In this document: positions 57,770 through 64,000 of the stretch, one piece after another
Position numbering within the stretch: position 1 is the stretch's first letter
Layout of the letters: each line of letters starts with the position of its first letter
Assembly (NCBI GenBank): GCA_021785265.1
Contig: JAJYFY010000003.1
Location: 1-64,000, forward strand
Source of the DNA: Pseudomonadota bacterium
Lineage (GTDB): Bacteria > Pseudomonadota > Gammaproteobacteria > JAKAQQ01
Reading direction: 5' to 3'
Length of the DNA: 64,000 nucleotides
Position numbers and translations under genes: made by a program
Notes under the pieces: generated by a model
What the model was told of the DNA's origin: nothing
Databases searched by the model: none
What the model saw: only the letters and a program-made list of their open reading frames with translations

Positions 57770-58485
57770 TCCGGGTCTGGGATGAACCGGCCTGGGTCTT
57801 GCATACCTGGGACTACGGGGAGACGAGCCAGATCGTCGAACTGCTCACGGGACGTGAGGGCCGCATCGGTGTCCTCGCCCGCGGAACCCGACGCTCCCGA
57901 AGGACTTCGCGTCTCGAGCCCTTTACGCCCTGGAGTGTTTCCTGGAGCGGAGGCGAGAATCGCCTGCCGACCCTGAGAGGCGCGGAACGGGCCGGTCCTC
58001 CAGTCCACCTAAAGGGGGATGCCCTCTGGGCCGGCTTCCACCTCCATGAACTGATCCTCCGCTTGACCGAACGCTTTGAACCGCTGATTTCGCTTTATGC
58101 CCGCTATACCGGTGCGCTGGATGCCCTGGGGGAGGGGGTCCCGCCGGCTCAGGTGGTGTGTCTGTTCGAACGGGACCTTCTGGTCGAGCTCGGCTATGGC
58201 CTCAATCTCCTTGAAGAAGCGGGGAGCCGCGAGCCGATCCATCCGGCGGCTCACTACGCGTTTGATCCCTGCTCCGGCGCCCGGCGACTGCCGGCCGGGG
58301 TGTCCGGCATCGAGGGACGTGTGCTTTTGGACCTGGCCCACGGGACCTTGAGTAATGAAGTCTCGCTCAAGGCCAGCCGCTCCCTGCTCGAAGGGGTCTA
58401 TACCTTTCATGGGAAGGGGCAGAGCCCGGGCGTGCGACCCTGGATGGAGTCGCTTTTAGTCTTCGCAAAGCGCCATGGCGCCTGA
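57766..58485 (+). CDS. recO: DNA repair protein RecO
   Basis: A 239-residue recombination mediator that binds single-stranded DNA and RecR. OB-fold start WVLHTWDYGETSQIVELLTG, then REGRIGVLARGTRRSRR, helix bundle (HELILRLTERFEPLISLYAR) and CLFERDLLVELGYGLNL. The zinc-finger cysteines of some RecO proteins are mostly absent, as in many proteobacteria. It overlaps era by 4 bp and pdxJ by up to 11 bp. Confidence 0.93.
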   Translation: MIRVWDEPAWVLHTWDYGETSQIVELLTGREGRIGVLARGTRRSRRTSRLEPFTPWSVSWSGGENRLPTLRGAERAGPPVHLKGDALWAGFHLHELILRLTERFEPLISLYARYTGALDALGEGVPPAQVVCLFERDLLVELGYGLNLLEEAGSREPIHPAAHYAFDPCSGARRLPAGVSGIEGRVLLDLAHGTLSNEVSLKASRSLLEGVYTFHGKGQSPGVRPWMESLLVFAKRHGA

Positions 58486-59245
58486 TGTGGCCGAGCGTGG
58501 CGGCCCGATGATCCGGCTCGGGGTCAATGTCGATCATGTGGCGACCCTCCGCGAAGCCCGACAGACCCGCTACCCGGACCCGATGGAGGCGGCCCGTCTG
58601 GCACTCCGCGGCGGGGCGGACAACATCACGGTCCATCTGCGCGAGGATCGTCGCCATATCCAGGAATCCGACGTGACCCGTCTCGTCCGGGAGCTGCCAC
58701 TCCCGATCAACCTGGAGATGAGCCTGAACTCGATCATCGTCGAGTTCGCGGAATCACTCCGGCCGGCCGAGGTCTGTTTTGTGCCGGAACGGCGGGCGGA
58801 ACGGACCACGGAAAGCGGGCTCGCGGTTCGTTTCCTGGCACACCGCCTGTTTCCGGTGGTGCGTCGACTCACGGAGTTCGGGATCCGGGTGGCCCTGTTC
58901 GTCGATCCTGTGGCCGACGAGATCGAGGCGGCAAGCGAGCTTGGGGTCAGTACCGTCGAACTCCACACGGGCGCCTATGCCGAATCCCGGGATGCTGCGT
59001 CCCGCGCCCATCGCCTCGAGCGCCTCCGGAACGCCGCCCGCCTGGCCCGCTCCCGGGGGCTTATGGTGCATGCCGGTCATGGGTTGGATTACGACTCGGT
59101 CGGTGGGGTGGCGGCGATTCCCGAGATCGAGACCTTGAATATCGGACATTCCATCGTGAGCCGGGCGGTGTTCATCGGACTGGAGTCCGCCACCCGTCTC
59201 ATGAAGGAGCGGATGGTGGAAGCCCGCCGGGGCGGGGCGGTGTGA
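58475..59245 (+). CDS. pdxJ: Pyridoxine 5'-phosphate synthase
   Basis: Makes pyridoxine phosphate from 3-amino-1-hydroxyacetone phosphate and deoxyxylulose phosphate. 256 residues from 58475, or 245 from ATG 58508, where the conserved IRLGVNVDHVATLREARQTR begins; the second start gives the family's usual length. Further motifs: ITVHLREDRRHIQ, LPINLEMSLN, ELHTGAYAE and VHAGHGLDYDSV. The stop overlaps the GTG of acpS. Confidence 0.95.
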   Translation: MAPDVAERGGPMIRLGVNVDHVATLREARQTRYPDPMEAARLALRGGADNITVHLREDRRHIQESDVTRLVRELPLPINLEMSLNSIIVEFAESLRPAEVCFVPERRAERTTESGLAVRFLAHRLFPVVRRLTEFGIRVALFVDPVADEIEAASELGVSTVELHTGAYAESRDAASRAHRLERLRNAARLARSRGLMVHAGHGLDYDSVGGVAAIPEIETLNIGHSIVSRAVFIGLESATRLMKERMVEARRGGAV

Positions 59246-59637
59246 TTTACGGGGTCGGGACCGATCTCGTCTCCATTCCGCGGATGGACGGCCTCTGGAG
59301 GCGACATGGAGCGCGAGCCGTCCAGCGCATCCTGACTCTATCCGAGCAGCAGGAACTGGGCCGCCGGCGTGAGCCGGCCCGCTACCTGGCCCTGCGCTTC
59401 GCGGCCAAGGAGGCGGTCGCGAAAGCTCTGGGGACCGGTTTTTCCGCCGGGGTTTCACTTCAGTCCATGAGCATCCTGGCCGATTCAAGAGGCAAGCCGG
59501 TCGTGCACTTTGCACCGGGTCCGCTGGCGGACCGTCTGCGCGAGATGGGGGTGGCTGGCGTGGAACTCAGCTTGGCGGACGAGTTGGACTGGGCACTGGC
59601 CTTTGCGGTGGCCTTTGGACGCGGGACGAACGGCTGA
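59242..59637 (+). CDS. acpS: Holo-ACP synthase
   Basis: Transfers 4'-phosphopantetheine from CoA to ACP. The 131-residue protein starts with GTG overlapping pdxJ and has IYGVGTDLVSIPRM (Mg-binding Asp8), RFAAKEAVAKALGTGF (Glu57), and a trimer-forming C-terminal part (VELSLADELDWALAFAVAF). Its last 71 bp overlap the 3' end of the kinase gene on the opposite strand. Confidence 0.95.
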   Translation: MIYGVGTDLVSIPRMDGLWRRHGARAVQRILTLSEQQELGRRREPARYLALRFAAKEAVAKALGTGFSAGVSLQSMSILADSRGKPVVHFAPGPLADRLREMGVAGVELSLADELDWALAFAVAFGRGTNG

Positions 59638-62284
59638 GTACCCGCTGGATGGTTTCGGCCAGCGTAATCGCCCGGATCGGTTTGACCAGATACTCGCGGA
59701 TTCCGGAGTTGAGGGCGCGGATCCGGGTCTCCGGGAGAATGTCGGCGCTGATCGCGACGAGCGGGAGAGCCGGGTGGTTGGCCGTAATTTGGCGTGCGGT
59801 TTCGATGCCGTCCATTTCGGGCATGTGGATATCGAGGAGCACGACGTCCGGTTCCACGCTCTCGATCATGCCGACCAGGCCAACCCCGTTCGGGCAGAGC
59901 CACACCCGGGCCCCCTGCTGTTCCAGCATGCGACCGATCAGGGTTCGGTTGATGGCGTTGTCCTCGGCCACCAGCATGCGGATCCCGGCAAGGAGCCCTG
60001 AGGGGTTCGCCTGAGACGGACGGGCGGGCGTCGGGATACGGGTCGTCGGGTCTTCAAGGATCGCCGTGACGGCCTGCTCAAGATCCTGCCAGGCAGCGGA
60101 GTCGAGGCCATGATCGTCCGGGTGGGTCTGTCCGTGGCTGCGGAGACGCGAGATGGCCACCTGCAGGGCGGGTAGTTTGCAGAAGCGGGCCGTGCCTTCG
60201 AGCTGATGCAGGGCTTCCCGGATTTTCTGTGGATCCGGATGGATTGTCCAGGCGTTGCGCAGGACCTCTACCTGGCGGGGCAGTTCCTGACGGAAGAGAT
60301 TCCAGAAATCCGCCTCCGAGTCGCGTCGCTTCGGCGCCGGTGCAGAAGGCGTGGCTTGGAGCAGTTCGACAAGCGCCTGTTTGAGGTCGCGGACGGTGGC
60401 ATGGACAGGCAGGCAGATGGCATTCCGAACCTGACCAATCCGCCGATGCTCCCGACGGTCGGCGGTGGCGGCCAGAACCAGCCGCCGCAGCCCCTCCGGG
60501 CCCGGCGCGGGTAACTCCCGGGTCAGCTCCGCGAGCCCGAGAATCTCGACCTCGAGAGCCGGTGGGCTGGCGTCCGGCCCGGGAGGTCCTTCGGCCGGAG
60601 GAATGATCTCAAAACCCCAGGCCGCGAAACGTCGTTCGAAACAGTCACGGTAGGCGGGAGGGCCCGAAAGGCGGATCGGATACGGGAAACTCGTGACCGG
60701 AACGGGAAGCGCTTCGGGAACCGGTGAAAAGCTGAGGCAGACTCCGAAACGGGTCCCCACTCCGGGCAGGCCCTCCACCCGGATGCTTCCTTTCATGGCT
60801 TCGACGATGCGCCGGCAGATCGCAAGCCCCAGTCCGACGCCGCCGAACCGGCGGGAGGTTGAACTGTCGGCTTGGGCGAAGGGCTCGAAGATGCGTGCCC
60901 GATCCTCGGGAGACAGGCCGATGCCCTCATCCTCCACGTCGAGATGGAACGTGATCCGGTCCGCCAGAATCTCCTGCCGTGCCCGGACACGGATCAAGCC
61001 ATGCTCGGTGAATTTGATCGCATTGCCGATCAGGTTGTTCAGGATCTGGCGCAGGCGGCCGGCATCCGCCAGCACCTGGAGCGGCGGTTCCTCATAGAGG
61101 TCCGGCAGGAAATCCAAGCCCTTCTGCAAAGCCTGTGGGGCGAGGGCGGCAATGACTTCCTCGAGCAGGATGTGGACATCGCAGGGCGCGTGCGAGAGGT
61201 CCAGGTGTCCCGCCTCGATCCGGGAGAAATGCAGGACTTCGTCGATGAGGCTGAGCAGGTGCTGCCCGGAGCGCTGGATCCACCCGAGGTACTCCTGTTG
61301 ATCCGCATCGAGGGGCGTGGCCGTGAGGAAATCGGCGTAGCCCAGAATGGTGTTCATCGGGGTGCGGATCTCGTGGTTGATGTTGGCCAGAAACGTCGTT
61401 TTGGCGCGGTTGGCGGCTACGGCCTGCTTGCGCGCGAGATCCAGGGCGACATTTTTGCTTTCCACCTCCTCCAGGGTTTCCCGGAGTTCCTGGGTGGCCT
61501 GGATGACCTCGGCCTCGAGCTGCCGGGTGCTGTGCCCGATCTGCTCCGCGAGCTGGTTGATGCCGTGCTCGAGTCGCCCCAGTTCCCCGTAGGAACTTTC
61601 CGGCAGACGGATCGACATCTGCCCTTCGGACAGTTTACTCACCGATTGCAGCATGCGGAGCACCGGGTGGGTGATCGAGCGGCTCATTCGCTCGGCCAGC
61701 ACAAAGGTCGCGAGCAGTCCCAGCATCATGAGGACCAGACCCTCGATCAGGATCCGACTTTCCTGGTCGCCCAGGTGCTCGGCGGAGAGCGTGACCCGGA
61801 CGGTGCCCAGGGTCTCCTCGGGTGCGGAGAGCTTTTTACTTCGGTGGTGGAAGAGTCCGTACACCGGGCCCACCGGAAGCGGCCGGATCGTGACCGGAGA
61901 GGAAAAGGTCCTGGCATTGCCGGGCGATCCGGAAATGAGGTTGGCGATGAGTTGGCCACTGCGTTCGACCCAGTTCATCGGCTCCCGCTTGCGGAATCCA
62001 CTGGCCAGAATTCGACCGGAATGGTTTTCGATCACGATCGAGGAGATAGCCGATTGGGCCAGTGCCGGATCGATCAGCCGGCGGAGGATCGTGGCGTTGT
62101 TCGACAGCACGCCGTACTGGGCGGCGGGTGCCAGCTGTCGGGACACGGTCTGTCCCAGGATCCGGCGGGAAGCCCGTAGGGCGGCCAGGTTGCTCGAGAC
62201 GAAATAGACGGCCAGGGCGATGGCGATCAATGCGGCGGGGCCCCAGGCGATCAGGAGCACCCGGCCGCGGATTCCGAGATTCAT
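59567..62284 (-). CDS. Hybrid sensor histidine kinase, BarA/GacS-like with permuted phosphorelay
   Basis: A 905-residue inner-membrane phosphorelay kinase. TM 9-30, periplasmic sensor about 31-178, TM 178-197, HAMP to about 250, coiled coil, HisKA with H304 (NINHEIRTPMNTILGYADFL), HATPase (N-box LRQILNNLIGNAIKFTEHG, GGVGLGLAICRRIVEAM). A degenerate receiver-like region covers 530-640. Then an HPt-like domain with H693 (ALHQLEGTARFCKL) precedes the real receiver, with acidic pair E774/D775, D818 (VVLLDIHMPEMDG) and K868 (YLVKPI). BarA and GacS end receiver-then-HPt, so this order is reversed. It is coupled to the upstream binding protein by a 4-bp overlap. Confidence 0.9.
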   Translation of the reverse strand: MNLGIRGRVLLIAWGPAALIAIALAVYFVSSNLAALRASRRILGQTVSRQLAPAAQYGVLSNNATILRRLIDPALAQSAISSIVIENHSGRILASGFRKREPMNWVERSGQLIANLISGSPGNARTFSSPVTIRPLPVGPVYGLFHHRSKKLSAPEETLGTVRVTLSAEHLGDQESRILIEGLVLMMLGLLATFVLAERMSRSITHPVLRMLQSVSKLSEGQMSIRLPESSYGELGRLEHGINQLAEQIGHSTRQLEAEVIQATQELRETLEEVESKNVALDLARKQAVAANRAKTTFLANINHEIRTPMNTILGYADFLTATPLDADQQEYLGWIQRSGQHLLSLIDEVLHFSRIEAGHLDLSHAPCDVHILLEEVIAALAPQALQKGLDFLPDLYEEPPLQVLADAGRLRQILNNLIGNAIKFTEHGLIRVRARQEILADRITFHLDVEDEGIGLSPEDRARIFEPFAQADSSTSRRFGGVGLGLAICRRIVEAMKGSIRVEGLPGVGTRFGVCLSFSPVPEALPVPVTSFPYPIRLSGPPAYRDCFERRFAAWGFEIIPPAEGPPGPDASPPALEVEILGLAELTRELPAPGPEGLRRLVLAATADRREHRRIGQVRNAICLPVHATVRDLKQALVELLQATPSAPAPKRRDSEADFWNLFRQELPRQVEVLRNAWTIHPDPQKIREALHQLEGTARFCKLPALQVAISRLRSHGQTHPDDHGLDSAAWQDLEQAVTAILEDPTTRIPTPARPSQANPSGLLAGIRMLVAEDNAINRTLIGRMLEQQGARVWLCPNGVGLVGMIESVEPDVVLLDIHMPEMDGIETARQITANHPALPLVAISADILPETRIRALNSGIREYLVKPIRAITLAETIQRVLSRSSRVQRPPQRPVPSPTRPPS

Positions 62285-63252
62285 ATCCCAAACTCGACCG
62301 GTTTCGGTCGGACGTGGCGATGCAAGGCCTTGAGAATCTGTGACAGGGACGGAAGCGGAATGCCCAGCGTGCCGGCGACCGAACGGTTGAGCAACACCGT
62401 GAATCGCCGGGGATAGGCCGGGGCGGGCAGTCGGGAGAGCCTGTGACTTGCTGCCGCGAGCACGATCGGCAGGGCCTGGCGACTGAACTGGTCGGGTGTG
62501 GAATAGAGGCCGGCTAGGGCACCGTCATGGACGTACTCGGGTGCGTAGCCGATCACCGGAACGCCATAGCGGAAGGCCCGCAGGAAGATTTCTGGAAGGG
62601 TGAGCGCATTGTAGACTGTGGCATCGGGGAGTTCGATCAGGGCATCGGTGCCGGGCAGGGCAAATCGGAATGCGCTGAAAATGGCTCGCGGTTCGGGTGG
62701 CGTCACGATGACATGGGCGGTATAACCGTGGGCATGGGCGATCCGTTCAATGCTTCGGCGTCGCCATTTCTGATTCTGGCTCAAAACCGCGGAGATCGCG
62801 TGCAGGCGCGGGATCAGGGTCACGGCCAGATCGAGAAAGCGTCCGAAGGGCTGGTTCAAGTAGATGGCCGTCACGGAAGCGTGTACGGATCGGGTCAGTC
62901 GGCGGAACGTTTCGCGGGTCACGTACAGGGCCAGAACCGGTGTCGTGGGATGTTGAGCGAGAAGCCAGGCGAGGCTCCCGGGTCCCACGGTCACGATGAG
63001 CACCGACCGGTCGAGGCGACCGATCTCCAGCGGGTCCATTCGGGTTCCCGATTGTCGCTTGAAAATCTCGATGCGGGTCACGCCCCGCCGGGACAAGGCG
63101 GCCTTGAGGTCACGGCCGAACGCCTGGTAAACCGGTTGACCCGCCCGCTCGATGAGGGTGAGTTCCGGGGCGGTCGGTCGGGCTCCGTGTGCCGGGGTCA
63201 TCCCCAAGCCAGCCACTAGCGCCAGGAGGCCCCCGATCAGGGTTTTACGCAT
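62281..63252 (-). CDS. Periplasmic ABC-type substrate-binding protein (TrpX-like), partner of the kinase
   Basis: A 323-residue exported protein with signal peptide LIGGLLALVAGLGMTPAHG and the fold pattern of the PF04392-type binding proteins (LIVTVGPGSLAWLLAQHPTT, PVLALYVTRETFRRL, ISAVLSQNQKWRRRSIERIA, LPDATVYNALTLPEIFLRAF, GVPVIGYAPEYVHDGALAGL). No permease or ATPase gene is near. Its stop overlaps the kinase start, so it more likely presents a ligand to the kinase than feeds a transporter. ATG 63252 is fixed by the signal peptide. The ligand is unknown. Confidence 0.82.
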   Translation of the reverse strand: MRKTLIGGLLALVAGLGMTPAHGARPTAPELTLIERAGQPVYQAFGRDLKAALSRRGVTRIEIFKRQSGTRMDPLEIGRLDRSVLIVTVGPGSLAWLLAQHPTTPVLALYVTRETFRRLTRSVHASVTAIYLNQPFGRFLDLAVTLIPRLHAISAVLSQNQKWRRRSIERIAHAHGYTAHVIVTPPEPRAIFSAFRFALPGTDALIELPDATVYNALTLPEIFLRAFRYGVPVIGYAPEYVHDGALAGLYSTPDQFSRQALPIVLAAASHRLSRLPAPAYPRRFTVLLNRSVAGTLGIPLPSLSQILKALHRHVRPKPVEFGI

Positions 63253-63298: not shown

Positions 63299-64000
63299 TT
63301 GAGCGAGCCGATACTGGCCTTTGATATCGAAACCATTCCGGATACTGCGCTGGGATCCCGCCTGTGGGGGCTCGAGGATCTCTCGGAAGCGGAGCAGATG
63401 GAGGCCATGCTGCAGAAGCGTCGGCAGGACACCGGCGGGAGTGAGTTCATGCCGATCCATCTCCATGCCGTGCTCGTGATCGGCATGGTCCTCCGGACCG
63501 ATCACGAACTCAAGTGTTTTTCCCTGGGCGCCCGTCTTGACAGCGAACACGAGCGGATCAAACGTTTTTTTTCCGGCCTGGACCGCCACAAGCCTCGTCT
63601 CGTCAGCTGGAATGGAAACGCCTTCGATCTCCCGGTCCTTCAGTACCGGGCTTTCCGGTACGCGATTCCGGCGGCCACCTATTGGGAAACCGGAGACCAT
63701 CTGCCGGAGTTCCGCTTCAACCACTACCGGTCCCGCTACCACTGGCGCCACACGGACCTCATGGACGTCTTGGGGGGCTACCAGTCCGGGCGCAACGCCG
63801 TCCGCCTCGATGAGGCCGCGCGCCTGGTCGGGCTGCCCGGCAAGCTGGACCTGTCCGGATCCGAGGTGCTCGCGTCCTATCTCGCCGGCGAACGGGACCG
63901 CATCGACCGTTATTGCGAGGTCGATGCGCTCACCACGTACCTTCTGTTTCTCCGTCTGGAACGGATGCGCGGCCGCCTGGCGGGCGATCGCTTTCAAGCC
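63299..64000 (+). CDS. DEDDy-type 3'-5' exonuclease, PolB-like, 3' end missing
   Basis: About 234 residues are visible and the frame is open at the right edge. It starts with TTG at 63299 behind a G-rich ribosome site. Motifs: ExoI AFDIETIPD (D9, E11), ExoII VSWNGNAFDLPVL, and ExoIII with Y-C-x-x-D in DRYCEVDALTTYLLF. This is the predicted PolB-like 3'-5' exonuclease family, probably acting in DNA repair or processing. It diverges from the binding-protein gene. Relatives are about 230-280 residues, so little is lost. Confidence 0.87.
   Translation, partial: MSEPILAFDIETIPDTALGSRLWGLEDLSEAEQMEAMLQKRRQDTGGSEFMPIHLHAVLVIGMVLRTDHELKCFSLGARLDSEHERIKRFFSGLDRHKPRLVSWNGNAFDLPVLQYRAFRYAIPAATYWETGDHLPEFRFNHYRSRYHWRHTDLMDVLGGYQSGRNAVRLDEAARLVGLPGKLDLSGSEVLASYLAGERDRIDRYCEVDALTTYLLFLRLERMRGRLAGDRFQA

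Follow-up and report, generated by a model that had tools for sequence, protein, structure and literature searches.

A putative binding-protein-coupled BarA/GacS-type phosphorelay sensor with exchanged HPt and receiver modules

Genes and domains of the locus

The window (the whole 64,000-nucleotide stretch of DNA that was analysed) carries a binding-protein gene directly followed, on the reverse strand, by the gene of a large hybrid kinase. The features of the locus are listed below.

62281-63252, reverse strand: binding protein of 323 aa, type I periplasmic-binding-protein fold, PF04392-like and TrpX-like, with Sec signal (ORF, profile and structure match)
59567-62284, reverse strand: BarA/GacS-type unorthodox histidine kinase of 905 aa (ORF, Pfam and NCBIfam)
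61778-62155, reverse strand: sCache_4, predicted periplasmic sensor domain, aa 44-169 (Pfam)
61538-61687, reverse strand: HAMP, aa 200-249 (Pfam)
61208-61405, reverse strand: HisKA with phospho-acceptor H304, aa 294-359 (Pfam and conservation)
60731-61066, reverse strand: HATPase_c, aa 407-518 (Pfam)
60350-60682, reverse strand: pseudoreceiver without phospho-Asp, aa about 535-645, counterpart of the GacS p-REC (model and profile)
60053-60319, reverse strand: HPt with H693, aa about 656-744 (Pfam, model and conservation)
59648-59974, reverse strand: terminal receiver with D818, aa 771-879 (Pfam, model and conservation)
58475-59637, forward strand: pdxJ (58475-59245) and acpS (59242-59637), conserved neighbours of BarA-type kinases
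63299-64000, forward strand: PolB-like 3'-5' exonuclease gene, PF10108, running off the window (Pfam); rlmD is next, beyond the window

The stop codon of the binding-protein gene and the start codon of the kinase gene share the letters ATGA, an overlap of 4 bp (junction ...GGATATGAATCTC...). A sequence-only reading of the same DNA had described these open reading frames, the overlap, the domains and the residues H304, H693 and D818, and it was right in every point. The 3' end of the kinase gene also overlaps the convergent acpS by 71 bp (59567-59637).

Pfam places the kinase domains in the order sCache_4, HAMP, HisKA, HATPase_c, Hpt and Response_reg. Two membrane helices flank sCache_4 (hydrophobic aa 7-38 and about 176-201). 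The HPt domain that had been predicted at residues 660-720 was matched by Pfam Hpt at 660-740 with 33.2 bits (cut-off 24.6), and Response_reg was matched at 771-879 with 81.7 bits. Residues 522-905 were modelled with AlphaFold2 from eight relatives, with a mean pLDDT of 76. Three units follow one another in the model: a receiver-like fold (about 536-643) without the acidic pair, the phospho-Asp and the Lys, a four-helix HPt bundle (656-744) and a receiver (769-884). H304, H693, D775, D818, S846 and K868 are invariant in all eight family members. The proposed order of degenerate receiver, HPt (H693) and true receiver (D818) is thereby confirmed by Pfam, by the model and by the eight family kinases.

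The binding protein has a Sec-type N-terminus. It scored 22.2 bits with Pfam ABC_sub_bind (PF04392), just under the cut-off of 25.9, and its more distant homologues scored 41-55 bits. The predicted type I periplasmic-binding fold has its best fold and profile matches in the TrpX-like PF04392 proteins 3lft, 3lkv and CD0873; XylFII-LytS (5xsd) was also among the structural matches. Unlike these PF04392 proteins, the window protein has no adjacent ABC transporter genes. Neither permease nor ATPase genes were found beside it, as had been claimed from the letters, and an ordinary ABC importer was rejected because these partner genes are absent.

A BarA/GacS-type kinase with a lineage-specific tail

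The best NCBIfam match of the kinase was BarA, over residues 2-520, with 460 bits (460.6), followed by LetS (384) and TorS (336). The score lies under the BarA equivalog cut-off of 890 bits, and so do those of the canonical-order relatives that were checked (578-796 bits). On one side of the kinase gene lie acpS, pdxJ and recO and on the other the PolB-like exonuclease gene and then rlmD, a neighbourhood common to BarA-type kinases across the gammaproteobacterial class; barA of Klebsiella adjoins rlmD-relA-mazG. GacS has a pseudoreceiver (p-REC) between its kinase part and REC plus HPt (PMC12148439). The window kinase has all these parts of the BarA/GacS family, namely sCache_4, HAMP, HisKA, HATPase, a post-HATPase pseudoreceiver and a BarA-type REC and HPt, but its HPt precedes its REC. 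The pseudoreceiver, the surrounding genes and the profile matches at residues 2-520 place the kinase in the BarA/GacS type; as it misses both the equivalog score and the REC-HPt order, we label it a permuted homologue and not BarA proper.

Eight kinases were read from the family, covering its three genera, and each has the order pseudoreceiver-HPt-REC; every other kinase read with both domains at a BarA-type locus has REC-HPt. A profile of the pseudoreceiver plus HPt unit, searched against 369 gammaproteobacterial genomes, gave end-to-end matches only inside the family. Among 399 pseudomonadotal genomes only the window's own kinase gave a full match, and neither survey found the HPt-REC order outside the family. 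A scan of genome contigs returned mostly unrelated hybrid kinases and one real relative. The HPt-REC order is real and lineage-specific. In G209 and G294 the two halves of the same profile are parted by a receiver-sized gap, and this layout, with the gap between pseudoreceiver and HPt, is the ancestral arrangement. The genomes are incomplete drafts (G000 consists of 125 contigs), which could favour an assembly or frameshift artefact. Such an origin is extremely improbable, since eight independent genomes of three genera, with 37-89% identity to the window kinase, have the same order in uninterrupted frames; an assembly artefact was rejected on the identical domain order of the relatives.

In a held-out profile test the RECs of the family scored +6.7 to +14.6 bits (95th percentile of other hybrid receivers, -0.7; median of BarA-type receivers, +14.3 bits) and the HPts +8 to +37, and both were thus classed as BarA-type. 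The best BLAST hits of the terminal REC favour other hybrid receivers and disagree with the profile scores, and where this domain came from cannot be read from a REC tree alone; we relied on the held-out calibration. Since both domains score as BarA-type, they are most likely BarA-type domains that were moved and not foreign replacements. The BarA REC-HPt pair would have been swapped within the gene, once, in the ancestor of the family, possibly by tandem duplication to REC-HPt-REC-HPt and loss of the outer copies.

Partner regulator and route of the phosphate

As had been noted from the letters, no response regulator gene lies near the kinase. Elsewhere in the genome, one UvrY/GacA-like regulator was found (213 bits; next best 64), under the UvrY cut-off of 280, with a receiver and a LuxR-type helix-turn-helix. 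Downstream of its gene come a thioredoxin-NHL gene, uvrC and a pgsA-like gene; E. coli and Marinomonas share the conserved uvrY-uvrC-pgsA arrangement (PMC8523701). The thioredoxin-NHL-repeat gene (L062:8421-10028) stands between the UvrY-like gene and uvrC, and a gap of similar size occurs in L324-L327. Each of the nine family genomes encodes the regulator; where the contig extends far enough, its gene lies close to uvrC in most cases. CsrA was also found in the genome. HPt domains above the cut-off occur only in this kinase and in one open frame of 1658 residues with several HPts; no free-standing HPt above the cut-off was found in the genome.

Because the regulator is single and kept family-wide, CsrA is present and the HPt is nearly the sole one, H304 to D818 to H693 to the UvrY-like regulator is likely the simplest relay. 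As judged from the chemistry, the orthology of the domains and the partner genes, the terminal receiver would fold back so that D818 takes the phosphate from H304, and H693 of the HPt would then pass it to the regulator encoded near uvrC, whose output may feed the CsrA network. The linear order of the domains should be no chemical obstacle to such a relay. The logical last donor is likely the HPt and not the terminal receiver, which would need no extra acceptor. The question of what takes the phosphate after a terminal receiver, raised by the sequence-only reading, then dissolves, with the UvrY/GacA-like regulator of the uvrY-uvrC-pgsA cluster as the probable recipient. A search of the 85%-complete genome for the GacA box (TGTAAGN6CTTACA) yielded no site with 0-1 mismatch, and sites with two mismatches were at chance level, so the downstream RNA step is unsupported.

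Another possibility is that the swap rewired the relay, the terminal receiver being the output, as a phosphate sink or by donating to another HPt or partner, and the HPt inside the kinase being vestigial or acting in dephosphorylation only. The intact receiver at the terminus would fit this, and hybrid kinases with a terminal receiver are common. We consider it unlikely: the HPt His is invariant and its fold intact across three genera, the other HPts above the cut-off all belong to one large protein rather than to a free-standing HPt, and the UvrY-like regulator is kept throughout the family.

BarA-UvrY of E. coli, GacS-GacA of Pseudomonas and LetS-LetA resemble the window system in their sCache_4, HAMP, HisKA, HATPase, pseudoreceiver, REC and HPt domains, in the gene neighbourhood, in the UvrY/GacA-like regulator beside uvrC-pgsA and in CsrA. 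In contrast to them, the window kinase has its HPt before its REC and a coupled binding protein, and the system scores under the equivalog cut-offs and yielded no GacA box. The profile match, the neighbourhood and the UvrY-like partner point to a variant of BarA/GacS-UvrY/GacA instead of the distinct sensory system that had been suggested.

Linkage of the binding protein to sCache_4 sensors

Homologues of the binding protein were found in 84 of 369 gammaproteobacterial genomes. In 71 of the 79 loci read, the gene immediately precedes that of a sensor carrying sCache_4 or a histidine kinase core, and the same 4-base overlap is frequent among the linked loci. A TonB-dependent receptor gene precedes the binding-protein gene at 56 of the 79 (Pfam-verified in six), and a GacA-like regulator is nearby at 18. 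In at least four loci (L045, L046, L280, L309) the sensor is an sCache_4-HAMP-PAS-GGDEF-EAL protein and not a kinase, so the input module appears, by domain content, to be joined to c-di-GMP output too; a TonB-dependent receptor was seen in three of these four. Three other arrangements were observed. In L043 and L055 the kinase gene comes before the binding-protein gene, the reverse of the usual order. In L056 (4346-11136) the kinase and REC-HPt are in two ORFs and the TonB-dependent receptor is in three pieces, which may be decay, sequencing error or real. In L332 (NZ_CP131792.1), an 847-kb P. aeruginosa record called a plasmid, gacS lies beside pirA, a TonB siderophore receptor gene, and pirRS; the record is either a chromosomal segment or a translocation.

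Within the family the two genes are not unlinked in close relatives: the pair is linked in all same-genus genomes and in the two sister-genus genomes that yielded the locus. The third genus (g2; L094, L095, L096) has kept the swapped tail and the locus; the binding protein and a recognisable sCache_4 region are gone and a different periplasmic region is present, which we read as joint loss of the sensor domain and its presumed partner. This loss, together with the linkage to sCache_4 sensors, is what one would expect of a binding protein that communicates with sCache_4. The putative two-part ligand sensor that was proposed from the gene overlap is thus well supported, with a pairing conserved far beyond this genome. 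The linkage of the binding protein is a bigger finding than the swapped tail.

LuxP-LuxQ and XylFII-LytS are likewise sensor kinases coupled to binding proteins, with other sensor folds, ligands and outputs. The putative mode of action of the pair resembles that of TorT-TorS-TorR (TMAO sensing), whose periplasmic binding protein TorT docks on the unorthodox kinase TorS (PMC3795677). TorS belongs to a different kinase subfamily, as the window kinase scores 336 bits with TorS against 460 with BarA.

On this evidence the pair is probably a binding-protein-coupled BarA/GacS-type phosphorelay sensor with the relay given above and a tail swapped once. The periplasmic protein would bind a small ligand, dock on sCache_4 and, via HAMP, set the balance of kinase and phosphatase. 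It is probably an older partner, and in other gammaproteobacteria a TonB-dependent receptor usually goes with it. Alternatively, it could be an ABC solute-binding protein, orphan or used for scavenging, whose gene just shares a transcript with the kinase gene, and the kinase would sense its own ligand via sCache_4 as proposed for BarA/GacS. For BarA and GacS, signalling does proceed via the periplasmic domain and no binding protein is known (PMC8639471, PMC12148439), and several BarA-type kinases stand at the equivalent locus without the binding-protein gene. This explanation is nevertheless improbable in view of the tight linkage to sCache_4 sensors of two output types (histidine kinase and GGDEF-EAL), the lack of a transporter partner and the loss of binding protein and sCache_4 region together in one genus. 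Moreover, the coupled sensors show no conservation of R94, H97 and H124 from the GacS pocket, which fits, without proving, a shift from direct to indirect ligand recognition.

For the coupled phosphorelay sensor a wider setting is conceivable, though we hold it with somewhat less than even confidence. TonB-dependent receptor, binding protein and sCache_4 sensor may form one module from the outer membrane to the cytoplasm, and a ligand that crosses the outer membrane and is handed to the binding protein may be the stimulus of many BarA/GacS-type kinases and GGDEF-EAL proteins; the window family would be a receptor-less version with a swapped relay tail. We found no description of a receptor-binding protein-BarA module in the open-access literature, which by itself does not prove that it is undescribed.

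The GacS stimulus is still described as unknown in the literature (PMC12148439), where the orthologues of BarA are also considered to have come to sense different signals (PMC8639471). Since a binding protein is linked class-wide to BarA-type kinases, in many cases together with an outer-membrane receptor of its own, a small soluble protein can be used to ask what the ligand is. By its sequence, the kinase is a variant of the known BarA/GacS switch to which a binding protein is attached and in which the last two relay modules are exchanged. With the same REC and HPt in either order, the swapped tail serves as a natural experiment on whether a His-Asp-His-Asp relay depends on the linear order of its domains.
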